From: Sulfurimonadaceae bacterium
Lineage (GTDB): Bacteria; Campylobacterota; Campylobacteria; Campylobacterales; Sulfurimonadaceae
NCBI GenBank assembly: GCA_016744575.1
Contig: JADGEC010000010.1
Location: forward strand, 1-51,279
DNA length: 51,279 bases
Direction of reading: 5' to 3'
Under the pieces are notes generated by a model. It made no database searches. It had not been told where the DNA came from and saw only the letters and a program-made list of their open reading frames with translations. This document shows positions 17,177 through 39,300 of the stretch, one piece after another (within the stretch, counting starts at the first letter, position 1; each line of letters opens with the position of its first letter). The translations under genes and the position numbers were made by a program.

Positions 17177-17193
17177 TAATCCAAGGAAAAGCG

Positions 17194-17865: not shown

Positions 17866-18728
17866 TATGCAGACTATGTGGGAGTGATGATGTCTCTGTT
17901 GTGTTTCAAGGGGATATCCGAAGTGGGGGAGCGCATACTGCCAGTGATGAGAAAGCCAAGGTCTATAGATGCCACGCTTGCAGTGTCGAATTCTTGACGA
18001 CTGATGTTGAACTGGAAGACTCAGAGTACTGGGATAAGAAAGAGGACTCTTTCAGTAAAGAGAAGATCTATGAGAAGTATGATGGGGAGCAGTTGAAGTG
18101 GTTGGAGAGAATAGGGCTTAATACTTTTAGGGATAAGGTGGTATTGGACTTTGGATGTGGGCACGGTACTTTTCTGGACCTGGTCTCGACGATCTCCAAA
18201 AAGACTTTTGGCGTAGAAAAAGACAAAGACCTTTTTCTGGAGTTCTATGAGGATAAACCCTATGAGATCTTTGAGACTTTGGCAGATATTGAGGATGATA
18301 GTATCGATCTCTTAGTCTCGTTTGATGTCATCGAGCATCTAAGTAAGCCAATAGATGTCTTATCAGAAATTCATAGGGTATTGAAAAAAGAGGCTGTTAT
18401 CTACATCGGTGTCCCAAATCAGAATGACTTCTTAAAAGAGATCGAGGAGAGTTACCTCCCTTTTTATTATCACAAGTCGCATCTGTTTTATCATGACATC
18501 GCGTCATTAAGATATATTTTGGACAAGGCAGGCCTGAGTTATAAAGATAGTTCCTTTTTGCATAAATACAACATCTATAATATGATCAATTGGCTCAAAC
18601 AAAACCGTGCAACAGGCAACCCGGAGAAAAAACACCCTTTTGATGGTGGACATGACACTATGTTTAAGAGTTATGTCGAGGAGAAAGGTATTGCATCACA
18701 TATCCTCATCAAGGCGAGTAAGCGATGA
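17862..18728 (+). CDS. Zinc-ribbon class I SAM methyltransferase
   Basis: A 288-residue methyltransferase with an N-terminal zinc ribbon (CRLCGS near residue 3 and CHAC near residue 36) and a Rossmann SAM-binding domain from about residue 90: VVLDFGCGHGTFLDLV, then a VEKDKD acidic strand, then DLLVSFDVIEHLSKPIDVLSEIHRVLK. This arrangement resembles sugar C- or O-methyltransferases found in surface glycan clusters. It starts with a GTG overlapping the previous stop and overlaps the next gene by four bases. The acceptor is unknown. Confidence 0.82.
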   Translation: MICRLCGSDDVSVVFQGDIRSGGAHTASDEKAKVYRCHACSVEFLTTDVELEDSEYWDKKEDSFSKEKIYEKYDGEQLKWLERIGLNTFRDKVVLDFGCGHGTFLDLVSTISKKTFGVEKDKDLFLEFYEDKPYEIFETLADIEDDSIDLLVSFDVIEHLSKPIDVLSEIHRVLKKEAVIYIGVPNQNDFLKEIEESYLPFYYHKSHLFYHDIASLRYILDKAGLSYKDSSFLHKYNIYNMINWLKQNRATGNPEKKHPFDGGHDTMFKSYVEEKGIASHILIKASKR

Positions 18729-19603
18729 AAAAGAAGTCTATTCTATTGACTGGAAGCAGCGGCATCTGTGGTAGTGCGATCAGTGATTCGTTATTGATCG
18801 AGAGCTATGACTTTCTCTTTTTGGATATTGCAGACCCTATACCCGGACAGGATGATCATAGCTATTATAAGACTGATCTGAGTAAAACAGATGAGATCGA
18901 AAAGGTCTTTATAGACAATGACATCGATATTGTCATCCATCTGGGTGGAAGCAGTGATCGTGATTCGTCTTGGGACGCAGTATTGAACAACAATATCATT
19001 GGTACCTATAACTTAATGGATCTCTCTGTTCGCTATGGTGTGAAGAAGGTCATCTTTGCGAGTACCAACCATGTCGTAGGTATGTATGAAGAAGATGATA
19101 AGGATGCGAGTTATGAATCACTGTTCCTAAATCGGGATAAAAAGATGGTCGATCGCCATAGTGAAAGTCGTCCAGACTCTTTATATGGAGTAAGTAAGCT
19201 TTTTGGCGAAAACCTGTGTCGGTACTATACCGAGAAGTTCGATATTGACTGTTATATGTTAAGGATCGGTTCTGTACGGGAAAAGAGTGGAGACCACCCC
19301 TACAACTATGCGGAGGCAGGAGTAAGAAGGGGTGACTTCGTCCGAGGAGATGAGGGGTACAAAGAGCAAGAGTTACGTCTTAAATCGATCTGGATGTCAA
19401 GAGATGACTTTACAAAGATGATAGCAAAATTGATCGAGTATAAGAGTTCAGAGAGGTTCGATATCTTTTATGCCATCAGTAAAAACGATAGAAGGTCTTT
19501 CGATATAGAGTATGCTGAGAAAAAATTAGACTTAGACCTGCAAGACAATGCAGAGAAGATGGTCTGGAAGAGTGAATATGGTCTCAATAATAATCAGGAC
19601 TAA
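18725..19603 (+). CDS. NAD-dependent epimerase/dehydratase (extended SDR)
   Basis: A 292-residue extended short-chain dehydrogenase. The NAD-binding loop is LLTGSSGICGSAI, with VIHLGGSSDRD as the second cofactor strand. The catalytic Tyr/Lys pair is in DSLYGVSKLFGE and is preceded by a serine-rich strand, FASTNHVVG. The sequence resembles the group of uronate/hexose dehydrogenases with short active-site loops as much as UDP-sugar epimerases, so the reaction is not assigned. It overlaps both neighbours. Confidence 0.8.
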   Translation: MKKKSILLTGSSGICGSAISDSLLIESYDFLFLDIADPIPGQDDHSYYKTDLSKTDEIEKVFIDNDIDIVIHLGGSSDRDSSWDAVLNNNIIGTYNLMDLSVRYGVKKVIFASTNHVVGMYEEDDKDASYESLFLNRDKKMVDRHSESRPDSLYGVSKLFGENLCRYYTEKFDIDCYMLRIGSVREKSGDHPYNYAEAGVRRGDFVRGDEGYKEQELRLKSIWMSRDDFTKMIAKLIEYKSSERFDIFYAISKNDRRSFDIEYAEKKLDLDLQDNAEKMVWKSEYGLNNNQD

Positions 19604-26452: not shown

Positions 26453-27559
26453 ATGAGAACAGAGCGACCAAGAGTGTCTGTCGTCACAGTCACTTACAAT
26501 GCAGGTGAGTCTCTTGAAAAGACGATCCAAAGTGTGCTAAGCCAGAGCTACGCAGATGTCGAATATCTGATCATTGACGGAAACAGCACAGATGAGACGA
26601 TAGATGTCATCAAAAAGTATGAAGCCGAGCTTGCCTACTGGGTCAGTGAACCAGATGATGGGATCTATGACGCGATGAACAAGGCCATCGACCAAGCTAG
26701 CGGGAGATGGATCAACTTTATGAACGCAGGCGATACATTCGCGCATAAAGAGACGATAGCAGAGATGCTCAAAGATCTCGAAGAGGATACTGATCTTTAC
26801 TGTGGAGGCATCGACTTTGTCGATCCGTCTACTTCGACGTCTCGTTACCGCGCCGCACACGGGCTCCAAAATATCTGGAAAACAATACCCTGCTGGCATC
26901 AGGCTACATTTATTAAGACTGCACTGATGAAAGAGTATAGATATGCCACAGAGTATAAGATAGCGGCTGATCATGAGTTTTTCATACGTTGTCATGTCAA
27001 TAAAAAAAGATTCCAGTTCATCGACAAAGTAGTAGCCACTATGATGGGCGGGGGTCTACATCAACAAGAGCGTACACGGGCGCATGTCGAATCGATGAAA
27101 GTCCTGGCCGACTATTTACCAGATATCGATATGCTTTTTAGTAGTGTGTATCCTGATGAGTTTTGCCGCACTCGACCATCATCGAGCAGCCTGGAATTCT
27201 CAAAAGGATTTGGTCAGTTTTATGAGGTGATCAAAGAGATACAAAGAGGATATCAAAAGGTCGCTCTGTATGGGTATGGGGCAGTAGGAAAGACAGTCAG
27301 TACTCTTTTGGGAGATAAGGTCTGTGTGGTCATCGATCAGGACAAGAGACTACAGGATGCTAAGACATCGCCCCCGATATGTGCAGTTGAGCAGCTTGTC
27401 GACTACGACTTTGAGATCCTTGTCATCACGCTACTGGGAAGGGAAGAAGAGATAGCGTCTACTCTAAATATTGATGAAGAGAAGGTCTTCCGTATCATAT
27501 TGGATGGTCGAGTTGCCATCGATCAGAGTAATAAAGGAGGGCTGGGGCATGAGTCTTAA
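26453..27559 (+). CDS. GT2 glycosyltransferase with C-terminal Rossmann-like tail
   Basis: A 368-residue protein. The family 2 transferase domain, about residues 5-230, has VSVVTVTYNAGESLEKTI, DVEYLIIDGNSTDET, YWVSEPDDGIYDAMNKAI and INFMNAGDTFAHKE. These are the motifs of WcaA/PglI-like transferases in which a DDGIYDAMNKA loop contacts the donor. The C-terminal 100 residues repeat the Rossmann-like tail: KVALYGYGAVGKTV, VCVVIDQDK and DYDFEILVITLLG. AGGA precedes the ATG. The stop overlaps the next gene by 11 nt. Confidence 0.86.
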   Translation: MRTERPRVSVVTVTYNAGESLEKTIQSVLSQSYADVEYLIIDGNSTDETIDVIKKYEAELAYWVSEPDDGIYDAMNKAIDQASGRWINFMNAGDTFAHKETIAEMLKDLEEDTDLYCGGIDFVDPSTSTSRYRAAHGLQNIWKTIPCWHQATFIKTALMKEYRYATEYKIAADHEFFIRCHVNKKRFQFIDKVVATMMGGGLHQQERTRAHVESMKVLADYLPDIDMLFSSVYPDEFCRTRPSSSSLEFSKGFGQFYEVIKEIQRGYQKVALYGYGAVGKTVSTLLGDKVCVVIDQDKRLQDAKTSPPICAVEQLVDYDFEILVITLLGREEEIASTLNIDEEKVFRIILDGRVAIDQSNKGGLGHES

Positions 27560-28229
27560 AAAACTGTTCTTATCACATCTCATCGATGGGGATACGCCCA
27601 CCTACGGTAATAAAAACCAGTTTTCTATAGAGAGAAGCTCATCGATCGAGCGAGGGGATGTCGCTAACTCAAGTCATATCAGTACGACGGTACATATTGG
27701 GACCCATATCGATATGCCCTATCATTTTTATCAAAAGGGGCAGAGGATCGATGCGTATGACGCCGCATGCTGGTATTTTCAAAGACCTCTTCTCGTAGAG
27801 GTCATACCTCAAGGTCCCGTGATCAAAGATGAGCTGATCGAAGTCCTAGAGTCAAGAGTCGTGGATGTAAGAACTGATATCCTGATCGTAAAGACAGGTA
27901 TTGAGAAGGAGCGTGGTAATGCGATGTTCTGGAGTGAGAACCCTGGTTTCTCACCAGAACTGTATGACTACCTATTAAAGAAGTTTCCCGGGTTACGGGT
28001 CTTTGGTTTTGACAGTATCTCCATCTCGGCTCTTTCGCAGCAGCCTATTGGGAAAGAGGCACATCTGCGGTTTTTAGATCCTGAGCACCCCATACTTCTA
28101 CTTGAGGATATGCATCTAAGCGAAGTGGATGATAAGAGTGCGATAGAGGATATACTTATCTCACCAATGAGGATAGCAGATTGTGACGGTCTACCCTGTA
28201 CAGTCTTTGCGACCGTAAAAGCGCAGTAG
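27549..28229 (+). CDS. Cyclase/kynurenine formamidase-like metal hydrolase
   Basis: A 226-residue protein of the cyclase family (Pfam cyclase, related to arylformamidase KynB). The metal-binding signature HIGTHIDMPYHF is present at about residues 53-64, followed by FGFDSISIS and a C-terminal TVFATVK strand. Enzymes of this family hydrolyse amides such as N-formylkynurenine or lactone-like bonds. No tryptophan catabolism genes are nearby; here it is the last gene of a glycan operon, so an amide or N-formyl group on an amino sugar is a possible substrate. The start is the ATG at 27549 behind AAAGGAGG; a longer frame from 27471 overlaps the previous gene. Confidence 0.8.
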   Translation: MSLKKLFLSHLIDGDTPTYGNKNQFSIERSSSIERGDVANSSHISTTVHIGTHIDMPYHFYQKGQRIDAYDAACWYFQRPLLVEVIPQGPVIKDELIEVLESRVVDVRTDILIVKTGIEKERGNAMFWSENPGFSPELYDYLLKKFPGLRVFGFDSISISALSQQPIGKEAHLRFLDPEHPILLLEDMHLSEVDDKSAIEDILISPMRIADCDGLPCTVFATVKAQ

Positions 28230-28235
28230 TCAAAA

Positions 28236-29111
28236 CTAGACGTTCGATTCGGGTTGGAGCGAGAAAGAGCAGCTGAAGTCCTTTGGGTCGATCTCCGTAT
28301 AGATGGGGATTTCAGCTTTGACTTTGACGGGCGCCAAGAGAGTCTCCTGCTCTATAGCTTTGAAGTCCAAGTAAGAGGGGACTACCGGGCGTACCTGAGA
28401 GTGGATGGCTTCTAAAGAGCGTGTCTTCTCTTTGACATCTGATGGTCTGACTGCTTGTGCAAGCACGGTATATCGATGATCTGTCTTGACTTCAGCGATG
28501 ACATTAAAGCAACAGAACTTCAACATATCTTTCAGACCACTGACTGTGGGACGCCAGTAAGTAAACGCTTCAGGATATTCGTCACTGGAGCTATTGAGAA
28601 ATAGATGAGGTTCATCTCCGGAGACTACTTCGGTCTCGATGATCAGCATCCCGCCGTTGCTGATCAGTCTACGACAGTTAGCAAGTCCATCAAGAGGGCT
28701 ATAGAGATGGTAAAGGACACCTGCCATGACGATGAGGTCAAACTTTTGATCAGGAAGAGCTTGTGGAAGTGTCTCCAATGCCTGATTGGGGAGATAATCA
28801 ATATCCAACTCTAAGAGCTCACGTCCTAAACGTAAGGTCTTTTTATCAAAGATATCGGTAGCTAAGACATCTTTGGCCCCGGCACTTTTTAATATGAAAG
28901 AGACGAGACCGTCAAAGGCGCCTATGTCCAGACATCTTAGCCCCTCTATCTGCATCTGTTCAAGAAGATGGAGAACCCCCAGAAGCGTCCAGTTGGGGGT
29001 GATGTCAATGGCGAAGCGCCCACTGCTCTTAAGGCCGTTGCCAAAGTCGATCGCATGAAACCATTTTTCAGCTTTGATGCGGGCCTCGTACTCTTCATTC
29101 GTCGCTATCAT
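28236..29111 (-). CDS. CmoB-like class I SAM methyltransferase
   Basis: A 291-residue SAM-dependent methyltransferase resembling the CmoB/DUF1698 group. An N-terminal segment with WFHAIDFGNGLKSSG precedes the SAM-binding domain: LRCLDIGAFDGLVSFILKS, VLATDIF, FDLIVMAGVLYHLYSPL and GGMLIIETEV. CmoB itself carboxymethylates tRNA uridine, but here the gene lies inside a glycan island and on the opposite strand from its neighbours, so a small-molecule or sugar target is also possible. It has its own promoter in the divergent gap and AGGA at a good distance from the ATG. It converges with the cyclase gene with a gap of 6 nt. Confidence 0.8.
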   Translation of the reverse strand: MIATNEEYEARIKAEKWFHAIDFGNGLKSSGRFAIDITPNWTLLGVLHLLEQMQIEGLRCLDIGAFDGLVSFILKSAGAKDVLATDIFDKKTLRLGRELLELDIDYLPNQALETLPQALPDQKFDLIVMAGVLYHLYSPLDGLANCRRLISNGGMLIIETEVVSGDEPHLFLNSSSDEYPEAFTYWRPTVSGLKDMLKFCCFNVIAEVKTDHRYTVLAQAVRPSDVKEKTRSLEAIHSQVRPVVPSYLDFKAIEQETLLAPVKVKAEIPIYTEIDPKDFSCSFSLQPESNV

Positions 29112-29147
29112 CGTTATATCCTATAGATTTTTGTTCTAAACCGAATA

Positions 29148-29153
29148 ATTATA
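29148..29153 (-). promoter_or_regulatory. -10 element of the minus-strand methyltransferase
   Basis: A TATAAT on the minus strand 37 nt upstream of the ATG at 29111, in a very AT-rich stretch. No clear -35 box. The 118-nt divergent gap also carries the plus-strand promoter of the aldolase operon. Confidence 0.5.
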
Positions 29154-29209
29154 TCTTTTTTATAATAACTTCGGCTTCTTCTAGGTAAAATCAAAGCATG
29201 CTTCTAAAC

Positions 29210-29215
29210 TATAAT
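29210..29215 (+). promoter_or_regulatory. -10 element of the cytidylyltransferase-aldolase operon
   Basis: A TATAAT on the plus strand 14 nt before the ATG at 29230. Transcription would start about 8 nt before the gene, giving a very short leader with only a weak AGGGA ribosome site. Confidence 0.5.
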
Positions 29216-29229
29216 AGGGATCATCAAAA

Positions 29230-29904
29230 ATGAAGATAATCGCGTTACTGCCAATGAAAGGTAATTCTGAGCGAGTTCCCAATAAAAACATGCGCTCCTT
29301 TGATGCTGCACCACTTTATCATGCCATCTTAAAAGTACTTTTAACCTCTGAACATATTGAAAAAGTGGCTATCGATACTGATAGTGATATTATCGCTGAT
29401 GATGCGAAAGAGCATTTTGGAGAGCGTGTCATCATCATCGACAGACCGGAAAAGATCCGGGGTGATTTTGTCTCGATGAACACTATTATAGATTTTGATC
29501 TTTCTCAGCTGGAGGGAGAGCATTTCTTACAGACACACAGTACCAACCCCTTAGTGGGAAGAACGACTATCGATGCAGCCATTGAAAAGTACTTTAAACA
29601 TCTAGAGACATATGACTCTCTCTTTTCAGTGACCCGATTCCAGACCCGTCTTTATGATAAAGATGCAAGACCGATCAATCATGATCCTAATGAACTTTTA
29701 CGGACGCAGGACCTGGAAGCGCTCTTTGAGGAGAACTCCAATTTTTATCTTTTCTCAAAGAGCGCGTTTTACAATGCAGACAAAAAACGCATAGGATTAA
29801 AACCGCAGTTATTTGAGGTCAATAGACTTGAAGCGGTAGATATCGATGAACCCGAAGACTTCAAGCTGGCAGAACTGCTTTACAGCCACAAGGGGGAATT
29901 ATGA
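29230..29904 (+). CDS. Cytidylyltransferase family protein (CMP-sugar synthetase-like)
   Basis: A 224-residue nucleotidyltransferase with the acylneuraminate cytidylyltransferase layout: IALLPMKGNSERVPNKNM as the CTP-binding loop, VAIDTDSDIIADDA, LQTHSTNPLVGRTTIDAAIE, and the terminal AVDIDEPEDFKLAE metal site. The loop reads MKGNSERVPNKN instead of ARGGSxRxPxKN, the variant found in a subgroup of cytidylyltransferase-domain proteins. It is first in an operon with an aldolase, a hydroxyacid dehydrogenase and a HAD phosphatase, which suggests it activates the product of that pathway. It overlaps the aldolase gene by four bases. Confidence 0.83.
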   Translation: MKIIALLPMKGNSERVPNKNMRSFDAAPLYHAILKVLLTSEHIEKVAIDTDSDIIADDAKEHFGERVIIIDRPEKIRGDFVSMNTIIDFDLSQLEGEHFLQTHSTNPLVGRTTIDAAIEKYFKHLETYDSLFSVTRFQTRLYDKDARPINHDPNELLRTQDLEALFEENSNFYLFSKSAFYNADKKRIGLKPQLFEVNRLEAVDIDEPEDFKLAELLYSHKGEL

Positions 29905-30668
29905 GCCTAAAGAGAAAACTCAGAGAGAACGAACTGACGATCGGCTCCTGGCTGACGATCGGGCATCCTTCGGTAGTGGAGATCATGGGCAGTGCAGGTT
30001 TTGAGTGGCTGGTGATCGATATGGAACACACTTCTATCGATCTGGCGATGGCACAGGTCCTTATCACGACCATACAGGCAAATGCGATGAAAGCACTGGT
30101 CCGCGTGAGTAAGAACGAAGAGGTCATCATCAAAAAGGTACTCGATATGGGTGCAGACGGCATAGTCGTACCGATGGTAAAGTCAGAAGCAGAAGCGTTA
30201 GAAGCTATTGGCTATGCCAAATATCCCCCGGTAGGTAAGCGTGGTGTAGGACTCTATCGTGCGCAGAAGTATGGGATCGGGTTTGATGAGTATAAAAGAT
30301 GGGTGGATGAGGAACTGGTGATCATCGCACAGATCGAGCATATCGAGGCGGTGGAGAACATCGAAGAGATCATCACTACCGAAGGCATCGATGGTGTGAT
30401 CATCGGTCCGTATGACCTTTCAGGTTCGATGGGTGCTCCGGGTGAGTATTACCGCGAAGATGTAAAAGCGGCGATACAGAGGGTCCTGGATAAATGTAAA
30501 GAGCATGAGATGCCTTCAGGTTTTCATGTGATCGAATCGGATCCTACCAACTTTATCGAGAGGGCAAGAGAGGGGTGCACCTTTTTGGCCTATAGCCTGG
30601 ACTTCTTCTTTTTGGGCGACTCTGCACGCGCTGGTGTCAAGGCCATCAAAGAGGAGCTTGGAACGTGA
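29901..30668 (+). CDS. HpcH/HpaI-family aldolase
   Basis: A 255-residue class II aldolase of the HpaI type, which joins or splits pyruvate (or a related keto acid) and an aldehyde. Family residues are visible: WLTIGHPSVVEIMGSAGFEW at the start, DMEHTSID with the catalytic His, LVRVSKN with the catalytic Arg, QIEHIEAVENIEEI with the metal-binding Glu, and IIGPYDLSGSMG with the metal-binding Asp. In this operon it could form the carbon skeleton of a 2-keto-3-deoxy sugar acid, which the preceding cytidylyltransferase could then activate. Aromatic catabolism genes, the usual HpaI context, are absent. Confidence 0.87.
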   Translation: MSLKRKLRENELTIGSWLTIGHPSVVEIMGSAGFEWLVIDMEHTSIDLAMAQVLITTIQANAMKALVRVSKNEEVIIKKVLDMGADGIVVPMVKSEAEALEAIGYAKYPPVGKRGVGLYRAQKYGIGFDEYKRWVDEELVIIAQIEHIEAVENIEEIITTEGIDGVIIGPYDLSGSMGAPGEYYREDVKAAIQRVLDKCKEHEMPSGFHVIESDPTNFIERAREGCTFLAYSLDFFFLGDSARAGVKAIKEELGT

Positions 30669-31618
30669 AGGTGTTTATATCAACGCATCCCTTTTCCTCC
30701 ACCTCACCGGAACCGATGCGTCTGTTGAGGTACAATGAGTTTGAGGTGCGTCTAAATCCATTTGAACATAAGATCACGACAGAGGGATTGGCACAGGAGC
30801 TTAAAGACGCAGATATCCTGATAGCGGGAACGGAGAAGATCACCGAGCAGGTCTTTTTGAATGCTCCAAAGTTGAAGATGATCTCGCGTGTGGGGATCGG
30901 ACTCGATGGGATCGACTTTGATCTGTGCAAAAAGTATGGTGTCCGTGTTGCCTACACCCCGGATGCACCGACAATGGCTGTTGCTGAACTCTGTGTCGGT
31001 ATGATCTTGGACCTAAGCCGCCAGATCACCCATACTGACAGGAACATCCGGAAAGGCATCTGGAAACGGCATATGGGCACGCTGCTTTATGGCAAGACGG
31101 TAGGTATCTTTGGTATGGGGCGTATTGGCAAGAGCCTGGTACATCTTCTGGCCCCCTTTAATGTCAAGTTCATGGTCCATGATATAGATCCCGATATCGC
31201 TTTTAGCAGACTGCACAGGGTAGAGCTGGCTACTAAAGTCGATGTGCTGAAATATAGTGATATCGTCTCTGTGAACCTGCCATTGAAAGAGGAGACCTAC
31301 GACTATATCACTGCCAGAGAGCTCGATCTGATGCAAAAACATGCCATCTTGATCAACTCTGCAAGAGGGGGGATCGTAAATGAGGATGACCTCTATGAAG
31401 CGCTTCGAAGCGGAGTGATCGCCGGGGCAGGTGTCGATGTCTTTGAAGTAGAGCCCTATAACGGAGTCTTGTGTGAACTGGATAACTGTCTGTTGACGTG
31501 TCATATGGGAGCGAGTACAGTCGATAGTCGAACTGATATGGAAGTCCAAGCTGTCGAAGAGATCATCAGGTTTAAGCAGAAGAGGCCTTTGAAGAACGAG
31601 GTATTTGAGAATGCGTGA
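30665..31618 (+). CDS. D-isomer-specific 2-hydroxyacid dehydrogenase
   Basis: A 317-residue NAD-dependent dehydrogenase of the SerA/phosphoglycerate dehydrogenase superfamily. The NAD loop is VGIFGMGRIGKSLV, the catalytic Arg is in LINSARGGIVNEDDL, the Glu in GVDVFEVEPYNG and the His in LLTCHMGASTVDSR. It lacks the C-terminal ACT domain of many SerA enzymes. The start is a GTG that overlaps the aldolase stop. In context it may reduce or oxidise a three-carbon or sugar-acid intermediate, for example producing a hydroxyacid for the pathway. Substrate unknown. Confidence 0.86.
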   Translation: MKVFISTHPFSSTSPEPMRLLRYNEFEVRLNPFEHKITTEGLAQELKDADILIAGTEKITEQVFLNAPKLKMISRVGIGLDGIDFDLCKKYGVRVAYTPDAPTMAVAELCVGMILDLSRQITHTDRNIRKGIWKRHMGTLLYGKTVGIFGMGRIGKSLVHLLAPFNVKFMVHDIDPDIAFSRLHRVELATKVDVLKYSDIVSVNLPLKEETYDYITARELDLMQKHAILINSARGGIVNEDDLYEALRSGVIAGAGVDVFEVEPYNGVLCELDNCLLTCHMGASTVDSRTDMEVQAVEEIIRFKQKRPLKNEVFENA

Positions 31619-31625
31619 GTTAACT

Positions 31626-32237
31626 ATGTTCAAAAATATCATCTTTGATTTTGACGGCGTCATATTGGATGCCGTTCCGATGAAGACAGAAGCTTATAGA
31701 AGACTCTTTGAAGCTCTTCCTAGCAAGGAACTGGAGCTCTTCATCGAGTACCATCTCGACAACGGTAGTATCTCTCGGTATGAAAAGATAAAGTACTTCT
31801 TTGAGAACATCCTGAAAAAGTCGATCTCGGAGGCCGAGGTCATGGAGTATGCCTCCCGTTACTCCAGACTTACAAAAGATGAACTGTGTCAGCACAAATA
31901 TCAGATCGAAGACTCTGTAGCTTTTATCAGAAGTCATCATCATGAGTATAATATGCATATCGCATCAGGGGCAGATGAGAAAGACCTAAAAGAGATCTGT
32001 AGAGCGCAGGAGATCGAGAACTACTTTATCTCCACACATGGATCACCTCAGATCAAACGAGAGATAGTCCGCGATATTCTTGAACGAAATGGCTATAAGC
32101 CTGAAGAGACTGTGCTTATCGGGGATGCGATGAACGATCTGAACTCGGCTAGAGACAATGGTATCCATTTCTTTGGATACAACAACAAAGCACTCATCGG
32201 TAAGGCTGATTATCTGATGGCTTTCTCTGATGTGTAG
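31626..32237 (+). CDS. HAD-superfamily phosphatase
   Basis: A 203-residue haloacid dehalogenase-type hydrolase. Motif I is IIFDFDGVILDAVPMK, motif II lies in NMHIASGADEK, and motif IV is VLIGDAMNDLNSARDNG. A helical cap (about 20-85) gives it the beta-phosphoglucomutase-like layout. It would remove a phosphate from a sugar or sugar-acid phosphate, as KdsC or GmhB do in other CMP/GDP sugar pathways. I place the start at the ATG at 31626, where motif I begins; an ATG at 31611 and a TTG at 31605 overlap the previous gene. It is the fourth gene of the operon. Confidence 0.8.
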   Translation: MFKNIIFDFDGVILDAVPMKTEAYRRLFEALPSKELELFIEYHLDNGSISRYEKIKYFFENILKKSISEAEVMEYASRYSRLTKDELCQHKYQIEDSVAFIRSHHHEYNMHIASGADEKDLKEICRAQEIENYFISTHGSPQIKREIVRDILERNGYKPEETVLIGDAMNDLNSARDNGIHFFGYNNKALIGKADYLMAFSDV

Positions 32238-32257: not shown

Positions 32258-33337
32258 ATGAGCAAGGACGTAAACAGACCAAAGATCTCAGTCATCACCC
32301 CGGTACTGGATTCGGAGAAGTATATTGAAAGGGCTATTCAAAGTGTACTGAGCCAAGAGTACAGTGATCTGGAACATATTGTCATCGATGGCCTCTCATC
32401 AGATAGGACTGTGGAGATACTTAAACAGTATTCGCATCTTCTCTGGATAAGTGAGAAAGATAGCGGGCAGTCTCAGGCGATGAACAAAGGTTTTGATCTT
32501 GCTACCGGTGATATCATCGTCTATCTCAATGCAGATGACTATTTTAACCCGGGTATATTTCAACAAGTGGCTGATAGGTTTACTGCGGGTGCCAGGATGA
32601 TACTGGGACGACTAAGTGTGATGACCCGTGATGGCGGGATCCGTATACATGATCCAAGTCCCGAGTATAGAGATGTCTTGAGACACTGGAAAAGCCTTTT
32701 TCCTATCAATCCTGTCCAATATTTCTATGCCAGAGAGTTACAGGAGAAGTATCGGTTTAATGAGACGAACCATCTGACGATGGATCATGAGTTCTTACTC
32801 TATCTATATCAACAGGTCAGACCAGAGAAGATCCCCGCTATCTTCGGTGTCTTTGATATGGTCGAAGGTTCGAAGACAGCCGAAGGGCTTAAAGACCCGG
32901 TGAGCTATTGGTCTCATAACACCTTTGCCTATATTGACCCCTTCCTGGAAGCATTAGAGAGTAAAGAGGTCATGGCTTTTAAAGATGAGCAGTGTGACTT
33001 TTTTAGAACACAACATAAGAAAAAGACATTCTTCGGGCTTATCCGTTTAAAAAAAGAGCTTGAAGCAATTGAAACGGTCGTAGTCTATGGAGCCGGGACA
33101 CAGTGCGAGGCTATCCATGAGCTCTTTTCGAATAAGATAGAACTGGTGGTGGATCGAGACAGCTCCTTACAGGGAAAGAGAATAGACGATCATCACATAC
33201 AGCCTCTTTCAGCACTTGAGCGACTTGAAAGACCAACCATTCTTGTGACACCGTTTGGTTATAAAGATGAGATCACAAAGAGCCTCTCGTCTATTATAGA
33301 GGCAAAGCTGCTTTTTTTGGAAGACTACGTACAGTGA
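32258..33337 (+). CDS. GT2 glycosyltransferase with C-terminal Rossmann-like tail
   Basis: A 359-residue protein. Residues about 5-220 are a family 2 glycosyltransferase with KISVITPVLDSEKYIERAI, LEHIVIDGLSSDRT, WISEKDSGQSQAMNKGF and VYLNADDYFNPG (metal site). The C-terminal 85 residues are the recurring Rossmann-like tail: VVVYGAGTQCEAIHE, KIELVVDRDSSLQGK and PTILVTPFG. The operon ends here, 3 bp from the stop of the oppositely oriented glycosyltransferase. Confidence 0.85.
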   Translation: MSKDVNRPKISVITPVLDSEKYIERAIQSVLSQEYSDLEHIVIDGLSSDRTVEILKQYSHLLWISEKDSGQSQAMNKGFDLATGDIIVYLNADDYFNPGIFQQVADRFTAGARMILGRLSVMTRDGGIRIHDPSPEYRDVLRHWKSLFPINPVQYFYARELQEKYRFNETNHLTMDHEFLLYLYQQVRPEKIPAIFGVFDMVEGSKTAEGLKDPVSYWSHNTFAYIDPFLEALESKEVMAFKDEQCDFFRTQHKKKTFFGLIRLKKELEAIETVVVYGAGTQCEAIHELFSNKIELVVDRDSSLQGKRIDDHHIQPLSALERLERPTILVTPFGYKDEITKSLSSIIEAKLLFLEDYVQ

Positions 33338-33340
33338 TCT

Positions 33341-34645
33341 TCATCCCACCCCTATGATAGTGATGTCCTTGTGCGCTTTTGATGCCTCATCCTGAAGAGT
33401 AGAGCAGATCTGGGTGTAGGAACCAATGGATGCGATCAGAAACTCCTTCTCTTTACGTCGCAGCGCTTCGCGGGGTGTGAGGACAGGGATACCTTGTATA
33501 AGGATATCATCTGCACTCCTGGTCGAAACGAAGTAGTTGACCTGTATGCCACGTGTACTCAATGCTTTTAAGAGCGTCTGTCCGAGTTCGCCTGTACCGT
33601 AGATACTGATACCTTTAGTGAGCTTAGTGATATCGAGTCGATCTAGAAGCATCTTCTCTGCCTGTGCCAGAGAGATATTGGGTACAGATAGCATGTGTGT
33701 GTTTTTGTGCGTATGTTGCCAGTAGTGCCATTTTGTCCTGAGATAAGGGAGATAGTGTCTGATATGATGGTAAGAGGGACTGCTCGGTTCATAACGACTT
33801 AAGATCTGTGCCTTGAGCCGATGATGAGGTCTGCCAAAGTGTTTGAAGGCACCATAGTGTCTGAGTAGGCGTTCCATATGTTTTAATACATACAAGATAT
33901 CATCACTCTTTTTTAGACTATGTAGATAGCTCTCTTTGCCTGTAGTCGAGAGGTCATGACGGTGATAGTCTAGTCCGATCTCACTGATGGAAGCAAAAAG
34001 TGGAGCGTCTTTAAGTTCTAGATAGAGTGCGGTTGACCACAAAAGGTCTTCAAACATAATTAGATGCCGTCGTCTTGGAAAGAGTGTGAACACTTTTTCT
34101 GCGATGCTTCTTTTGATGATCTTGTTCCAGTTCACATGCCAGATCCAGGCGGTACTCCGACTTGACATGATCTCATCCAAGATCTCATAGCCATCACGGT
34201 GGTCAAATTCGGGTATGGTATTGTAGGCTTCCACCCAATGATGACCGTCTGTGTCACACTGCTGTGCATTGAAAAAGAGAACAGCAGCCCCTGTCTGGAT
34301 GGCCCGTGAAAGACTATTGGCATAGATGGTCTTCGTGACCGTATCATCCGAATCCAAAAAAGCCACATACTCGCCTTTGGCCTGTCTGACACCAGTATGT
34401 CTGGCCTCAAAAGCGCCCCTGTTCTTACTGTGAGACAGGTACCTTATACGTGGATCACGGGTCTGATAGTCGTGGACAATCTCATGACATGATGGGTGTG
34501 AAGCATCATCGACAACAATGATCTCCATATCCTGTAGTTGGTTGTTGCAGACACTTTCAAGGCAGCGTGGTAAGAACAGCTCCGTATGATAGACGGGGAT
34601 GATGACAGAGAGTCTTGGGGAAGGTGTCCTGTCACTATTATGCAT
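33341..34645 (-). CDS. GT2 glycosyltransferase with C-terminal Rossmann-like tail
   Basis: A 434-residue protein, last gene of the pse operon. The transferase domain has LSVIIPVYHTELFLPRCLE, MEIIVVDDASHPSC, YLSHSKNRGAFEARHTGV, YVAFLDSDDTVTK with the DxD site, and MFEDLLWSTALYLE. The C-terminal 100 residues repeat the Rossmann-like tail (ISIYGTGELGQTLLKA, then EFLIASIGS). The start at the ATG at 34645 overlaps the pseI stop by 8 nt; a longer frame to 34687 would overlap it by 50 nt. Its place at the end of the pse operon suggests it uses or extends a Pse-containing glycan, but this is inference. Confidence 0.83.
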   Translation of the reverse strand: MHNSDRTPSPRLSVIIPVYHTELFLPRCLESVCNNQLQDMEIIVVDDASHPSCHEIVHDYQTRDPRIRYLSHSKNRGAFEARHTGVRQAKGEYVAFLDSDDTVTKTIYANSLSRAIQTGAAVLFFNAQQCDTDGHHWVEAYNTIPEFDHRDGYEILDEIMSSRSTAWIWHVNWNKIIKRSIAEKVFTLFPRRRHLIMFEDLLWSTALYLELKDAPLFASISEIGLDYHRHDLSTTGKESYLHSLKKSDDILYVLKHMERLLRHYGAFKHFGRPHHRLKAQILSRYEPSSPSYHHIRHYLPYLRTKWHYWQHTHKNTHMLSVPNISLAQAEKMLLDRLDITKLTKGISIYGTGELGQTLLKALSTRGIQVNYFVSTRSADDILIQGIPVLTPREALRRKEKEFLIASIGSYTQICSTLQDEASKAHKDITIIGVG

Positions 34646-35654
34646 CAAAGCAGTCGTTGTCCAGAGGCTCTCCTCTGCTGATCGCACGTCTTGATGGTTG
34701 GCCTAACATCGTTTTCATGTGCTTGGGATGCAGTCCATGTCCAGGCCGAACACTTCTTATGTTCTCCGAGCTAAACTTCTCCCCTTTTTGGATGTCCTGA
34801 CTGGCGAAGAGACTTCGTGCATACTGTTTTGATTTCTCTCTGTAGTCGACTTGACCGAGCATCTTCTCGACATTACGCACACTCTCTACCATCTCCTTTA
34901 GTTGAGATGGAGAGAGGGAGAAGGCCTGGTCTGGCGTCTCGATAGTCTCATCGGGAGTAAAGTGTTTTTCAATGATCCGGGCTCCTAATGCGACAGATGC
35001 TACTACAGCGTCCGTACCCAGGGTGTGATCTGAGAGTCCGACTGTGACGCCAAACTGCTTTTCCATATCCGGGATACTCAGCAGGTTCATCGACTCTGGA
35101 TCGGCCGGATAAGCGCTGGTACATTTAAGCAGGGCGATCTGCTCGTTGCCCATCCTTTTACAGCTCTCTATCGCAAGCTCAATATCTGCTCTGCCTGCAA
35201 TACCCGTCGAGATGATGACCGGTCTTCCTTTAGAAGCGACATACTCTATCAGCGGGATATCGGTGATCTCGAAAGAGGATATCTTGTAGGCGGGAACATG
35301 GAGTGCTTCGAGCAGATCGACTGCAGAAGCATCAAAAGGGCTGGAGAAAAGAGTGATGCCTAGCTCATCAGCGTAGGCTTTTAATGGTCTATGCCACTCC
35401 CAGGGCAGATAAGCACGCTTATAGAGGTCGTAGAGGTATTCGCCACTCCAGATATCACCGGCTTTAAAAAGGTTGTCCTTGACATCGAGCGTCATCGTAT
35501 CAGCGGTGTAAGTCTGGAGCTTGATAGCATCACAGCCTGCCTCATAAGCGACTTTGACAGCCTTTTTGGCGAGTTGAAAGTCCTGATTGTGATTGGTAGA
35601 GAGTTCGGCGATGATAAAGACTTGTCTATCAAGGTCGTGCGAGGCTATCTTCAT
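34638..35654 (-). CDS. pseI: Pseudaminic acid synthase PseI
   Basis: Condenses 6-deoxy-AltdiNAc with phosphoenolpyruvate to form pseudaminic acid. The 338-residue protein has the NeuB barrel: FIIAELSTNHNQDFQLAKKA, DAIKLQTYTADTMTLD, GEYLYDLYKRAYLPWEWHRP, ISTGIAGRADIE, LKCTSAYPADPESMNL and GLSDHTLGTDA. A C-terminal SAF domain (about 280-338) contains RPGHGLHPKHM. The YLPWEW form is typical of PseI rather than NeuB or LegI. It overlaps pseH by four bases and is directly followed by a glycosyltransferase. Confidence 0.95.
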   Translation of the reverse strand: MKIASHDLDRQVFIIAELSTNHNQDFQLAKKAVKVAYEAGCDAIKLQTYTADTMTLDVKDNLFKAGDIWSGEYLYDLYKRAYLPWEWHRPLKAYADELGITLFSSPFDASAVDLLEALHVPAYKISSFEITDIPLIEYVASKGRPVIISTGIAGRADIELAIESCKRMGNEQIALLKCTSAYPADPESMNLLSIPDMEKQFGVTVGLSDHTLGTDAVVASVALGARIIEKHFTPDETIETPDQAFSLSPSQLKEMVESVRNVEKMLGQVDYREKSKQYARSLFASQDIQKGEKFSSENIRSVRPGHGLHPKHMKTMLGQPSRRAISRGEPLDNDCFDA

Positions 35655-36175: not shown

Positions 36176-36393
36176 TAGTGTCCTGCCAGCTTTAAGATAT
36201 CATCGATGCTCTGACATGCTTCTACGTCATCGACTTCGATATCGAGTCCCATCTCATCATAAAGTTCGAGGATACTTAGCATACTCAAAGAGTCCCAACG
36301 TTCAAAACTACTCAACTGCATGCTTCTTTTCAGCGTGTCTGCCTCAATACCCAGGATATCGCAGAGTTCTGCGAGAAACTTCTCTTTTGTCAT
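36175..36393 (-). CDS. Acyl carrier protein
   Basis: A 72-residue acyl carrier protein with the phosphopantetheine attachment serine in RWDSLSMLSILELYDEMG, in the usual position near residue 35. It is not the fatty-acid ACP by context. It sits between a KAS III gene and pseH, overlapping both, so it probably carries an acyl or glyceroyl group for glycan modification. A second carrier-like protein is encoded at 37453-37737. Confidence 0.88.
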   Translation of the reverse strand: MTKEKFLAELCDILGIEADTLKRSMQLSSFERWDSLSMLSILELYDEMGLDIEVDDVEACQSIDDILKLAGH

Positions 36394-37466
36394 AAGGTCT
36401 CCTTTTTGTAGATGGATGTCTCTGGTGCATATATCTTATTCGTCTGCAGTATGGCACCGCCCCAGCTCAGCCCGATCCCAAAACCGGCTATGACCAGAGT
36501 AAGTGCTTTTTGCTCAAACTCACTGCTTAAAAAGCCGTTGATGGTACCGGGGATGGAAGCGGCATTTTGGTTGCCGTATATCTTTCCGGTCTCCAGAGGG
36601 ACTTTGGCCTTGTCGACTTTAAGACGTGAGGCGATCGTCTTTAAGATATAAGGGTTGGCCTGATGCAGGACAAAGTAGTCGATCTCGTCACTGGAGAGTC
36701 CAGCGTTTTGCAGTAACTCCCTGATAAGCGGCGGGACGGTCTTGATGGCAAAGTTAAAGACCTCTTTACCGTTCATGACCAGGTCCTCATCACGACGAAT
36801 ACTGCCATCTTCACGCTCTTTTTGTAAAAGAGAGTCAGGGGTACTCGGGTCTCGTGCCCCACCAGATGGGATGATGAGATGTCTATACCCTCCACCATCG
36901 CTATAGAGTGAGAAAAAGCTTTTTGGTGCAGGTCTCTTCTCTATGATGATGGCACTTCCGGCATCTCCCATCAAAGGGGTGAAGATCTTGTCACGTTCTC
37001 CGGAGAAGTAGCTGTTCACATCACCAACACATAGTAAGACTTTTCCCATACCGCTGTTGACATAGGAGAACGCGGTAAAGAGACCATAGATGAATCCGCT
37101 GCAACCGAGGTTGATATCAAATGCGGCGCAGCTTTTCGCTAATCCAAGTCTATCTTGCATGATGATAGCAGTGGAGGGTGCCTTGTAGTCCGGGCTTTGT
37201 GTCACAAAGAGTAAAGCATCGATCTCTTCCGGGTCAACGACACCTGCTTCAAAGATCTGCTTTGCACTTTGGACACAGAGGTCGCTGGTACAGACACCAT
37301 CACTGACGACATGGCGGGTATCCAGACCTATGCTACGCTGCAGGCGTGAGAAGCTCGCATCATCGAAACCAAAGCGCTCTTTCTCATCTTCAAGCTTGAT
37401 GATCTCATCGCCGACAGTTGTCACCATCGCAGTGATGGCGATGTCCTCAAAACTAAGTGATGGCAT
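36390..37466 (-). CDS. 3-oxoacyl-ACP synthase III (FabH-like)
   Basis: A 358-residue thiolase-fold KAS III protein. The catalytic triad is intact: Cys in INLGCSGFIYGLF, His in YFVLHQANPYILK and Asn in YGNQNAASIPGTI. In fatty-acid synthesis FabH condenses acetyl-CoA with malonyl-ACP, but KAS III homologues in glycan and antibiotic loci can transfer acyl groups from a carrier to an alcohol or amine. Location between two ACP genes and next to pseH favours the second role. It overlaps both neighbours. The acceptor is unknown. Confidence 0.88.
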   Translation of the reverse strand: MPSLSFEDIAITAMVTTVGDEIIKLEDEKERFGFDDASFSRLQRSIGLDTRHVVSDGVCTSDLCVQSAKQIFEAGVVDPEEIDALLFVTQSPDYKAPSTAIIMQDRLGLAKSCAAFDINLGCSGFIYGLFTAFSYVNSGMGKVLLCVGDVNSYFSGERDKIFTPLMGDAGSAIIIEKRPAPKSFFSLYSDGGGYRHLIIPSGGARDPSTPDSLLQKEREDGSIRRDEDLVMNGKEVFNFAIKTVPPLIRELLQNAGLSSDEIDYFVLHQANPYILKTIASRLKVDKAKVPLETGKIYGNQNAASIPGTINGFLSSEFEQKALTLVIAGFGIGLSWGGAILQTNKIYAPETSIYKKETL

Positions 37467-37737
37467 GCTCTATCCTTTCTTGGAGGTATCGCTCCAATGT
37501 CACAATGTCCTTAAACGGAGTGTTCTTCTCATCCATGCTTGCCTCATTAGCGACAGCTATGTAGTGACCGGTCTGCTCTTCGAGCATAGACTCCAGTTCC
37601 AGGATAAGGTCCAGTGTCCCAAGGGAGTCCAGAAGTTTAAAAAGTGCTGTTGACTCATCTACCTCTTTAAGCCCTTCGATGGCTAACTCCTCATTGACAT
37701 TGCTGATGGCTTCTAATATCGTCTCTCTAAGTGGCAT
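37453..37737 (-). CDS. Second acyl-carrier-like protein
   Basis: A 94-residue acidic helical protein with LFKLLDSLGTLDLILELESML, in which DSLGTLD matches the phosphopantetheine site of acyl carrier proteins (Ser near residue 38). It carries an insertion after helix II relative to ordinary ACP. It overlaps the FkbH gene upstream by 11 nt and KAS III downstream by 14 nt. The pairing with FkbH is typical of glyceryl-carrier proteins. Identification as a carrier is likely but not certain. Confidence 0.75.
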   Translation of the reverse strand: MPLRETILEAISNVNEELAIEGLKEVDESTALFKLLDSLGTLDLILELESMLEEQTGHYIAVANEASMDEKNTPFKDIVTLERYLQERIEHAIT

Positions 37738-39283
37738 CGATCACCTTTATATCTTTATTAATATCGACTTTTTGGGCAGATCTGTAATGTTTTTCACTCT
37801 CATCGAGCATAAGTTCAAAACCATTCTTCTCATAAAAGTCCTCCACAAGGGCATTTTTGGCTGTCGGTATGTATCTCGCGCTCAATGATGGGTGCTTGGA
37901 ACGTATAAAAGCTAGGACTCTCTCTTCAATACCACGACCCAATACCCGACAACTCATCAAAAATGAGTCTATGTGACTATCTTTGATGATGATGACACCG
38001 ACAAGACCCATATCGCCAAAGTCATCTTTTACCTGAAGTGCGTAGACCTTCTCCTGAGACATCAGCGCCTCTATCTCTGCGCGTTCATACCGTCTTGTGG
38101 TGAGATTGAACTGGTTGGTCTTGTTCACCAGTTGGGTGATCCGGTCGAGCTGTCGTGTGTTATTACAGGTCACGGTTATCTCAATATGCAGGGAGGCTAT
38201 ATACTCTTGTCTTGAACCGAGAGATTCACTCAGGTCGAGGCGACTCTTCTCTTCTTGGTAGAGTTTGGTCTTTTGCGTGTCTTCATTAGTGATGTGTAGT
38301 GTCTTTAGCTCAGTAATACTCTCTAAAAGGGTTATGTTCTTTAAGGGGTCGTTCACATCCATTCTGTAACAGGGGATGCCCATCCTCATACGCATCTCTG
38401 CTATCTCACTGTCGGAATCATCGAAAAATATGATGCTGGACCTGCTTAGGTTGAGCCTCTTTAAGATCATATCAAGGTTCTCACTTTTTGGAGACCAATC
38501 GATCGATGCAGCGACAAAGTCATCGAGGCTCAGTGGCATGTTCTTTTCATGGAAGACTTTTTGGACAAGTGACTCATCATTCTTACTAAGCAGTATCAGG
38601 ATGATCCCGCTCTGTTTCAGTGCTTTTAGGTGGCGTTGAAACTTTGTATAGACTATACCAGGGTAGTTCTGGTCGATCTTTATGCCATCGATCCCATCTT
38701 CTCCGACAATGCCGCCCCATAAGGTGTTGTCAGCATCAACGGCTATCGCTTTGATGCGAGAGGTGCTCATCAATGTGATGTTCTCTTTGATCTTCTCTGC
38801 CAGCAGGCTCACTGCCTTTTTTGTAAAGGGGGTCTGAAAAAGGTATCTGTTCCTCTCGTTGACAAGCGTCTGCAAGCCAAACTCTTTGACCAGACTGCTA
38901 AGGTCCAAGATGGCTAGATCAGCAAACTCTTCTGAGAGAGAGACTATCTTTCTGTTGAGCTCCATCAGGGCCATCTCTTGCCCAAAGGTGTCAGTTATAT
39001 GGATCTCGTAAAAGCTATCAGTGACCGTGTTGATGATGACCTTGGTGCTGTGCTCTTCTCTAAATGTCTTTAAGGCGTTGTGTAGTTGTCGAAATGAGCG
39101 GTCAGCATCGAGGCCAAAAAAAGCCGGATCGAGAAGGATGATAAGCAGGTCCTCTTTGACGCCGAGATGGAGCTGGTCAATGATCGTGTCTAAAGGGTAG
39201 TGGACTATTGTGTAGTCAGCTAAAAATCGATTAAAAGGTCTTGTTATTGTGTTGGATAAAAAAGCGATAGTGTTGATGCTCAT
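37727..39283 (-). CDS. FkbH-like HAD-IIIC protein with GNAT domain
   Basis: A 518-residue protein of the FkbH type. An N-terminal region of about 170 residues precedes the HAD subfamily IIIC domain, with IKAIAVDADNTLWGGIVGEDG (nucleophile Asp in DADNTLWG), LLSKNDESLV and SSIIFFDDSDSEIAEMR. The C-terminal part (about 350-518) is GNAT-like with FEKNGFEL-type YEKNGFELM near the end. Characterised FkbH proteins take glycerate from 1,3-bisphosphoglycerate and load it on a carrier protein. The adjacent carrier and KAS III genes fit this. I choose the ATG at 39283, which has GGGAAG upstream. Confidence 0.85.
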   Translation of the reverse strand: MSINTIAFLSNTITRPFNRFLADYTIVHYPLDTIIDQLHLGVKEDLLIILLDPAFFGLDADRSFRQLHNALKTFREEHSTKVIINTVTDSFYEIHITDTFGQEMALMELNRKIVSLSEEFADLAILDLSSLVKEFGLQTLVNERNRYLFQTPFTKKAVSLLAEKIKENITLMSTSRIKAIAVDADNTLWGGIVGEDGIDGIKIDQNYPGIVYTKFQRHLKALKQSGIILILLSKNDESLVQKVFHEKNMPLSLDDFVAASIDWSPKSENLDMILKRLNLSRSSIIFFDDSDSEIAEMRMRMGIPCYRMDVNDPLKNITLLESITELKTLHITNEDTQKTKLYQEEKSRLDLSESLGSRQEYIASLHIEITVTCNNTRQLDRITQLVNKTNQFNLTTRRYERAEIEALMSQEKVYALQVKDDFGDMGLVGVIIIKDSHIDSFLMSCRVLGRGIEERVLAFIRSKHPSLSARYIPTAKNALVEDFYEKNGFELMLDESEKHYRSAQKVDINKDIKVIDAT

Positions 39284-39300
39284 CTTGACTCTTCCCACAT

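Follow-up and report, generated by a model that had tools for sequence, protein, structure and literature searches.

The window analysed here, a 51,279-nucleotide stretch from a Sulfurimonadaceae bacterium, contains four genes on the plus strand which a sequence-only reading had proposed as a pathway for a CMP-activated keto-acid sugar. Their Pfam matches bear out its description of them: a cytidylyltransferase of the cytA family (29230..29904; PF02348, 91.8 bits), an HpcH/HpaI class II 2-oxo acid aldolase that falls in a cytidylyltransferase-linked clade (29901..30668; PF03328, 125.7 bits), a SerA-like D-2-hydroxyacid dehydrogenase with a GTG start (30665..31618; PF02826, 171.7 bits, and also PF00389) and a HAD phosphatase (31626..32237; PF13419, 63.5 bits). 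Among the first three, successive genes share 4 bases, and the phosphatase, given a TTG start at 31605 in the list of open reading frames, more likely begins with the ATG at 31626. The catalytic residues are intact: conservation is at least 90% for H43, R68, E146 and D172 of the aldolase (92 homologues), for R234, E263 and H280 of the dehydrogenase (66 homologues) and for D15, D17, K151, D174 and D178 of the phosphatase (49 homologues), which also has the family-conserved K27, R58 and K61 (numbered from the ORF start). The nearest solved structures are NeuA-type CMP-sialate synthetases for the cytidylyltransferase, 2-dehydro-3-deoxygalactarate aldolase 1dxe for the aldolase and phosphoglycerate dehydrogenase 1wwk for the dehydrogenase. 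The promoter that had been ascribed to the four genes was not found, the region 29080-29300 having no sigma-70-like site on the plus strand and one on the minus strand (0.7 expected).

The setting of these genes is a flagellar-glycan island. A PF04199 "cyclase" resembling kynurenine formamidase, a metal hydrolase with the motif HxGTHxD (27546..28229, plus strand; 66.8 bits), is, from the comparison of loci, an upstream member of the same conserved cassette; its orthologues within the cassettes of other genomes are 35-58% identical. Directly 3' of the quartet lies a family 2 glycosyltransferase (32258..33337, plus strand; PF00535, 90.2 bits), possibly the user of the cassette product, and some other loci have a gene like it close to the cassette. 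The same island encodes an Azf-like SDR (18725..19603, plus strand), which reaches 160 bits with the NCBIfam Azf model (cut-off 400).

The cytidylyltransferase is a candidate CMP-ulosonate synthetase, which would move CMP from CTP onto the anomeric hydroxyl of a 2-ulosonic acid, by virtue of its PF02348 membership and conserved motif positions. It was rejected as a PseF, with 89.7 bits against a curated cut-off of 205.7 (TIGR03584, NCBIfam), and as a KdsB, with at best 30.6 bits against 234, and it is not the Kdo enzyme of the host genome. That genome has four CTP_transf_3 proteins, two of them orphans (the one in the quartet and another at 16487-17176). One might suppose that the quartet's enzyme simply belongs to known Pse or Kdo metabolism, with unrelated neighbours, and Pse genes do lie 4-15 kb away. 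The genome, however, possesses its own PseF (41542-42282, also in the window; 335 bits with the same model), its own KdsA, apart from the cassette, and a further CTP_transf_3 on contig C25 that is probably of Kdo type; the conserved aldolase linkage and the NeuB-free carriers described below speak against this idea as well, and we consider it very improbable.

The aldolase is a member of the HpcH/HpaI class II superfamily (PF03328), with the Glu/Asp metal ligands and the catalytic His and Arg all present. Since it has the fold and the catalytic residues of a catabolic family, it could in principle be a catabolic enzyme with HpaI, GarL or RhmA activity that sits in the island by accident. Its scores with these equivalog models (188.8, 171.4 and 141.9 bits) are nevertheless under the curated cut-offs (368.8, 406.75 and 441), and it was rejected as any of the three; W17, Y171 and H209 are invariant in 61/61 members of its clade and mixed in 16 catabolic-type relatives. 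A link to aromatic catabolism, named in advance as one finding that would refute the proposal, is not what we find: the clade as a whole is tied to cytidylyltransferases, and we give scarcely any credence to an accidental catabolic aldolase. The trees of the aldolase and of the dehydrogenase, the latter separating the cassette enzyme from the genome's other SerA-like protein, come from quick searches and have many open forks.

The search for the quartet across genomes that had been suggested shows that the link between aldolase and cytidylyltransferase is kept, and that the cassette is present in many distant bacteria well beyond Campylobacterota, Maribacter flavus being one carrier. A CTP_transf_3 gene is found in 64 of 70 aldolase loci scoring at least 240, and in 60 it lies no more than 1.5 kb away; such a gene occurs in 6 of the 22 HpaI-like loci with lower scores. 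This count leaves out loci shorter than 4.5 kb and three loci (L115, L116 and L122) taken as duplicates of L025, L027 and L037 because their contigs have the same length. Six loci have no cytidylyltransferase in the stretch available. Truncation accounts for this in L061 and L062 but not in L028, L067, L173 and L176, although L028 and L067 offer just about 2 kb on one side. When at least 7 kb is available on both sides, the cytidylyltransferase is present in 42/42 aldolase-clade loci and the 2-hydroxyacid dehydrogenase in 40/42, L018 and L023 being loci with aldolase and cytidylyltransferase where the dehydrogenase is not in view. The constancy of the aldolase is partly built in, because the survey was seeded by it, and cytidylyltransferase-seeded scans served as the reverse check. 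In Campylobacterota, all six close cytidylyltransferases (67-100%; two distant matches at 32-34% were left out) come from aldolase genomes and adjoin the aldolase; of the eight from Bacteroidota, four have the aldolase. The cytidylyltransferase partner has switched between cytA and cytB at least nine times (13-22 at random), with the aldolase link kept. Judged by this linkage, the quartet is no chance grouping.

To our knowledge, the skeleton of every described CMP-activated bacterial ulosonic acid comes from a PEP-dependent synthase, KdsA or a relative of NeuB. The sequence-only reading had stated that the host has no NeuB homologue besides pseI, and indeed the genome encodes one NeuB-family protein, PseI (34638-35654). 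More generally, NeuB is absent from 5/17 carrier genomes, and a NeuB-family gene is seen in 11 of the 42 full loci. Four of the five NeuB-free carriers have Kdo enzymes separate from the cassette; in three of them (G397, G398 and G400) the cassette gene is one of exactly two that encode a CTP_transf_3 protein, and a single KdsA passes the cut-off. In the fifth, a MAG (G408), the cassette CTP_transf_3 is the only one in the genome and KdsA is also absent; several carrier records are MAGs and possibly misbinned. Dependence of the cassette on NeuB was rejected on these genomes, as was its membership among NeuB/KdsA-dependent ulosonate pathways, defined by a PEP-dependent synthase linked to the cytidylyltransferase. 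The aldolase-cytidylyltransferase linkage, the partner switches and the NeuB-free carriers thus support the idea, already put forward from the letters alone, that a CMP-sugar may be made without a PEP-dependent synthase.

The idea that the quartet itself is the pathway stands for its core linkage and fails for its extent, since in other carriers the cassette also includes a sugar oxidoreductase and a lactonase slot and is often joined by the anomerase family YhcH. The slot is filled by a PF04199 enzyme in 18 of 38 loci, by 6-phosphogluconolactonase in 11, by both in none and by neither in nine; it is from this shared slot that we propose the PF04199 enzyme as a lactonase. YhcH is encoded in 21/70 aldolase loci, often directly beside the aldolase. 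In E. coli, YhcH converts the cyclic forms of Neu5Ac and KDN to open ones for an aldolase (PMC8141875). Phosphate removal could fall to a HAD, an inositol-phosphatase-like or a DHQ-synthase-like protein, depending on the locus; no HAD is seen in many cassettes with DHQ-synthase-like genes, which are a feature of the C variants of the cassette and whose products may eliminate phosphate alone or may cyclise. The added oxidoreductase, lactonase slot and YhcH point to a possible branch beside the aldolase, leading from an aldose phosphate through an aldonate to a 2-keto acid. In the host genome we found no YhcH and no SDR1 orthologue (best match 28% identity), and because of this its own version of the pathway may be reduced. 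The Azf-like SDR, which of all proteins in the window fits the SDR1 profile best (84 bits), is a possible stand-in for SDR1, with a presumed link to the cassette.

Given the observed gene content, linkage, intact catalytic residues and independence from NeuB, we think, with a probability of about one half, that the cassette makes a CMP-activated 2-ulosonic acid without a PEP-dependent synthase of NeuB or KdsA type. The reactions that follow, the sequence in which they run and the direction in which the aldolase works are our inference. An aldose phosphate would be oxidised at C1 by SDR1, a Gfo/Idh or a GAPDH-like enzyme in the relatives, perhaps by the Azf-like SDR here; the lactone would be opened by the PF04199 enzyme here and by 6-phosphogluconolactonase elsewhere; and the dehydrogenase would produce the 2-keto acid. 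The HpaI aldolase, with a pyruvate-type donor, would join C3 to C4 of the ulosonic skeleton, and a phosphatase would render this step irreversible, much as KdsC does in Kdo synthesis. In cassettes with YhcH, that enzyme would interconvert the open and the cyclic form; the cytidylyltransferase would activate the sugar for transfer. A point against this scheme is that C1 oxidation, if it consumes the aldose, leaves the aldehyde partner of the aldolase unexplained.

A second point against the proposed scheme comes from L200 and L202, which have cytA, the dehydrogenase and an SDR and no HpaI aldolase. The same loci, together with the near constancy of the dehydrogenase, which almost equals that of the cytidylyltransferase, do not fit the role of mere redox adjuster first assigned to this enzyme. 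L200 and L202 also speak for an oxidative route, in which the ulosonic acid would be a 2-ketoaldonate made by sugar-1-oxidation, lactonase, phosphatase and 2-hydroxyacid dehydrogenase alone. The aldolase would then edit it, by retro-aldol cleavage followed by re-addition, so as to epimerise C3/C4 or to exchange hydroxypyruvate for pyruvate. This route also agrees with the lactonase slot, with L185, where an aldolase-free YhcH-dh-IMPase-cyc-cyt-SIS-Gfo set adjoins a second, dh-ald-cyt-GAPDH-HAD set, and with the window's second orphan cytidylyltransferase, whose neighbour is a 2-hydroxyacid dehydrogenase of Ldh_2 type and which has no aldolase beside it. We know of no HpaI enzyme, however, that works as an epimerase, and the aldolase is constant in the 42 full loci, albeit in a search made by aldolase; we regard the oxidative route as conceivable, though rather unlikely.

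Alternatively, dehydrogenase and HAD could turn 3-phosphoglycerate into hydroxypyruvate. With this as its donor, the aldolase would produce an ulosonic acid of the 3-hydroxy (non-deoxy) kind. The SerA-like character of the dehydrogenase, the GAPDH-like gene of L185, L189 and L190, and L068, which contains cyt, ald, dh and HAD only, are in line with this, and HpcH aldolases take hydroxypyruvate with D-glyceraldehyde (PMC7610986). It leaves the lactonase and the sugar oxidoreductase unexplained, and many cassettes with DHQ-synthase-like genes have no visible HAD, so that we think such a supply distinctly unlikely. Another reading, which places every gene in one line yet seems to us doubtful, is that the product is a CMP-ulosonic acid with a branched chain and two carboxyl groups. 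In this case the dehydrogenase would convert aldonate phosphate to 2-ketoaldonate phosphate, and the aldolase would add pyruvate to its ketone to give a 4-C-carboxy-3-deoxy-2-ulosonate, followed by dephosphorylation and CMP activation. PMC7610986 also describes addition of pyruvate to ketones by HpcH aldolases in vitro.

The preferred reading, CMP-ulosonic acid synthesis without a PEP-dependent synthase, resembles the Kdo pathway (KdsD-KdsA-KdsC-KdsB) in the order of its proposed steps, from the joining of an aldose (phosphate) to a C3 unit through a phosphatase to a cytidylyltransferase, in the SIS isomerase of some cassette variants and in the cytB partner of L035, which scores above the cut-off of a KdsB subfamily; it differs in that an HpaI pyruvate-type aldolase replaces KdsA, in the added dehydrogenase, lactonase and oxidoreductase, and in standing apart from the genome's KdsA. 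With the NeuB/NeuA, PseI/PseF and LegI/LegF pathways it shares a NeuA/PseF-like cytidylyltransferase and a flagellar glycosylation setting, but not the need for a NeuB-type synthase. The HpaI, GarL and RhmA aldolases share the fold, metal ligands and catalytic His and Arg, whereas the cassette clade has residues and a gene neighbourhood of its own. In the Epd-PdxB branch of vitamin B6 synthesis, an aldose phosphate is likewise converted to an aldonate phosphate, on which a D-2-hydroxyacid dehydrogenase then acts; the cassette differs by its link to an aldolase and CMP activation. N-acetylneuraminate lyase with YhcH combines a 2-keto acid aldolase and a DUF386 anomerase on one ulosonic acid (PMC8141875), as those cassettes that have YhcH may do, but NanA is class I and catabolic, unlike the class II HpaI-type aldolase with CMP activation of the cassette.

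Within the open PMC literature, a scope outside which most subscription papers and all preprints fall, we found no description of this cassette. If our reading is correct, this conserved, mobile cassette of five or six defined proteins would represent a further route of biosynthesis that needs no PEP-dependent synthase, and flagella, O-antigens or surface proteins in Campylobacterota, Bacteroidota and others would probably carry at least one acidic sugar not seen so far; the branched acid, if real, would open a new class of nucleotide sugars. A likely function would also be provided for orphan proteins that are labelled "HpaI aldolase", "phosphoglycerate dehydrogenase" or "arylformamidase" where they occur in glycan loci. 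In the plasmid collection, one record matched, at 44.7% identity.

On the forward strand of the window (contig C171; draft genome of 3.59 Mb), a cytidylyltransferase (29230-29904), an HpcH/HpaI aldolase (29901-30668), a D-2-hydroxyacid dehydrogenase (30665-31618) and a HAD phosphatase (31626-32237) form a four-gene run, followed by a family 2 glycosyltransferase and preceded by a PF04199 hydrolase (27546-28229, forward) and, between the two, a methyltransferase (28236-29111, reverse). We predict from sequence that the cassette (this quartet plus its conserved partners in other carriers) is a form of CMP-ulosonate biosynthesis, in which a pyruvate-type aldolase would build the product, the phosphatase would dephosphorylate it and CMP activation would come last; a 2-ketoaldonate would arise from an aldose phosphate through the oxidoreductase, lactonase and 2-hydroxyacid dehydrogenase acting together. 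This would mirror the KdsA/KdsC/KdsB logic of the Kdo pathway, but with a pyruvate-type aldolase. The components belong to known families, whereas their combination and route appear undescribed: we did not find the cassette in the open full-text PMC literature.

The surrounding island contains flagellin, a Maf-type transferase (PF01973/PF20157), the pseudaminic acid (Pse) genes PseB, C, F, G and I, and numerous glycosyltransferases and methyltransferases. Among the Pse genes, 36390-40702 (reverse) encodes a KAS III-like protein, a PIG-L deacetylase, a formyltransferase-like protein, a small ORF (no Pfam match) occupying the position of an acyl carrier protein, and a 523-aa HAD-domain protein, which we take to resemble FkbH; the set possibly decorates Pse with a glyceroyl or another acyl group.

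The cytidylyltransferase of the run could be assigned neither to PseF (89.7 bits, cut-off 205.7) nor to the Kdo enzymes (30.6 bits versus 234 for the nearest Kdo model). A genome search returned one NeuB-family synthase, in agreement with the sequence-only reading that pseI is the sole NeuB homologue. Because the genome encodes four CTP_transf_3 proteins versus this single synthase and one KdsA, the enzyme of the run and a second one (16487-17176, forward) are orphans. The aldolase scores under the HpaI, GarL and RhmA cut-offs, with its catalytic residues intact. Its W17, Y171 and H209 are invariant in 61/61 clade aldolases and mixed in 16 catabolic-type relatives; they presumably align with positions shaping the acceptor pocket of E. 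coli HpaI, and would then point to a single unusual acceptor conserved across the clade.

Gene content was determined with profiles built from the loci and run on every open frame of the larger ones. CTP_transf_3 is present in 64 of 70 non-duplicate loci whose aldolase has a profile score of at least 240 (within 1.5 kb in 60), versus 6 of 22 lower-scoring loci. Among 42 clade loci (aldolase score >= 340, at least 7 kb on each side), CTP_transf_3 occurs in all 42, a 2-hydroxyacid dehydrogenase in 40, an oxidoreductase (the sugar oxidoreductase SDR1, Gfo/Idh or GAPDH-like) in 39, a phosphatase in 31, a lactonase-type gene in 28 and a NeuB-family gene in 11. On the aldolase tree, presence or absence of the cytidylyltransferase requires 3 changes (14-18 at random); within the clade, its type, PseF/NeuA-like (cytA) or KdsB-like (cytB), requires at least 9 (13-22 at random), and cytB can adjoin an aldolase 80-81% identical to that of the window. 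The type has thus been swapped while the link to the aldolase was retained, as expected under selection for a shared product.

PEP-dependent synthases are not constant companions: NeuB was not found in 5 of 17 carrier genomes searched. Three genomes (G397, G398, G400) each encode exactly two CTP_transf_3 proteins, of which one lies inside the cassette, and a single KdsA that exceeds the cut-off; G402 encodes KdsA and, besides the cassette CTP_transf_3, two further matches to that family (one weak). In G408, a possibly incomplete MAG of 2.2 Mb, the sole CTP_transf_3 is the cassette gene, and neither KdsA nor NeuB was found.

Three forms recur among the larger loci. Form A comprises cytA, aldolase, dehydrogenase, SDR1, a lactonase-type gene and HAD (in Bacteroidota in the order cytA, YhcH, aldolase, SDR1, 6-phosphogluconolactonase, HAD, dehydrogenase); form B has a flippase, aldolase and cytB and, farther along, dehydrogenase, SDR1, PF04199 and HAD; form C has dehydrogenase, Gfo/Idh, SIS isomerase, SDR, a DHQ-synthase-like protein, YhcH, cytA, PF04199 and aldolase. 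Of the 38 loci carrying both SDR1 and HAD, 18 have PF04199, 11 have 6-phosphogluconolactonase and 9 have neither; PF04199 and 6-phosphogluconolactonase never occur together there, and they occupy a common slot (L042 versus L049); we infer that both are lactonases. A GAPDH-like gene is additionally present in L185, L189 and L190. The window's form lacks SDR1 (best match in the genome, 28% identity; nearest SDR in the window, Azf-like, 18725-19603, scoring 84 bits with the SDR1 profile), and YhcH was not found in its genome; L068 carries a still smaller set (cytidylyltransferase, aldolase, dehydrogenase, HAD).

In two B-type loci (L016, by Pfam; L037, by clustering) a radical SAM/SPASM protein and then an SDR lie directly upstream of the dehydrogenase. 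The DHQ-synthase-like protein of C-type loci L043, L056, L059, L063 and L177 is of TIGR04425 type, the curated cut-off having been run on L043 (458.8 bits, cut-off 400); the 3-hydroxy counterpart of DAHP, the substrate of its relatives, would be 2-ketoheptonate 7-phosphate. L180 has an aldolase of the same family, together with Gfo/Idh, SIS, dehydrogenase, 6-phosphogluconolactonase and two ATP-grasp proteins, without a cytidylyltransferase, and is perhaps a relative pathway using a different activation.

As to the product, E. coli YhcH opens the rings of Neu5Ac and KDN but gives no benefit with 2-keto-3-deoxyxylonate, which is mostly open (PMC8141875); its position beside the cassette aldolase argues for a mainly ring-form product. 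In vitro, hydroxypyruvate can serve HpcH-type aldolases as donor and ketones as acceptors (PMC7610986). On that basis it is chemically possible that hydroxypyruvate is the donor, that the aldolase edits a 2-ketoaldonate by retro-aldol cleavage and re-addition, or that it adds pyruvate to the ketone of a 2-ketoaldonate phosphate, giving a branched dicarboxylic CMP-ulosonic acid.

The aldolase and oxidative branches are partly separable, as judged from three observations. A reverse scan with cytA of the 375 Bacteroidota genomes that were also scanned for HpaI-like proteins matched 8, of which 4 have the aldolase; in L200 and L202, cytA is accompanied by dehydrogenase and SDR, no HpaI aldolase being found there (L201 is a lone cytA-type match amid housekeeping genes, and L203 has HAD, cytidylyltransferase and an HMGL/MptE fusion). 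Conversely, in L018 and L023 the aldolase and cytidylyltransferase come without a dehydrogenase in view. Finally, the dehydrogenases form several distinct lineages in a tree, and their function was therefore recruited more than once. In L194 and L203, the HMGL-like aldolase domain is fused to an MptE-like (Maf-type) domain, beside HAD and cytidylyltransferase genes. In the window, a gene group at 15443-19603 (forward), beginning straight after flagellin and Maf, may make an ulosonic acid without an aldolase: an Ldh_2-family 2-hydroxyacid dehydrogenase (15443-16486, forward) directly precedes the second orphan cytidylyltransferase, followed by a GDSL hydrolase, a methyltransferase and the Azf-like SDR. 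This orphan has a close relative (58%) in one of 396 other Campylobacterota genomes (G240, locus L124), also adjoining an Ldh_2 gene.

The aldolase occurs in 11 of 397 Campylobacterota genomes, from 10 genera (E <= 1e-40). A scan of GTDB r220, one genome per species, gave 54 loci, many from MAGs, under record names including Campylobacterota, Bacteroidota, several proteobacterial groups, Deferribacteraceae, Planctomycetota, Ignavibacteriaceae, Balneola and others; isolates with such a locus include Maribacter flavus, Draconibacterium mangrovi, Hufsiella ginkgonis, Mucilaginibacter phenanthrenivorans and Facilibium subflavum. An HpaI-like protein of some kind is present in 29 of 375 Bacteroidota genomes, at 35 places (E <= 1e-20), all 35 represented among the loci analysed.
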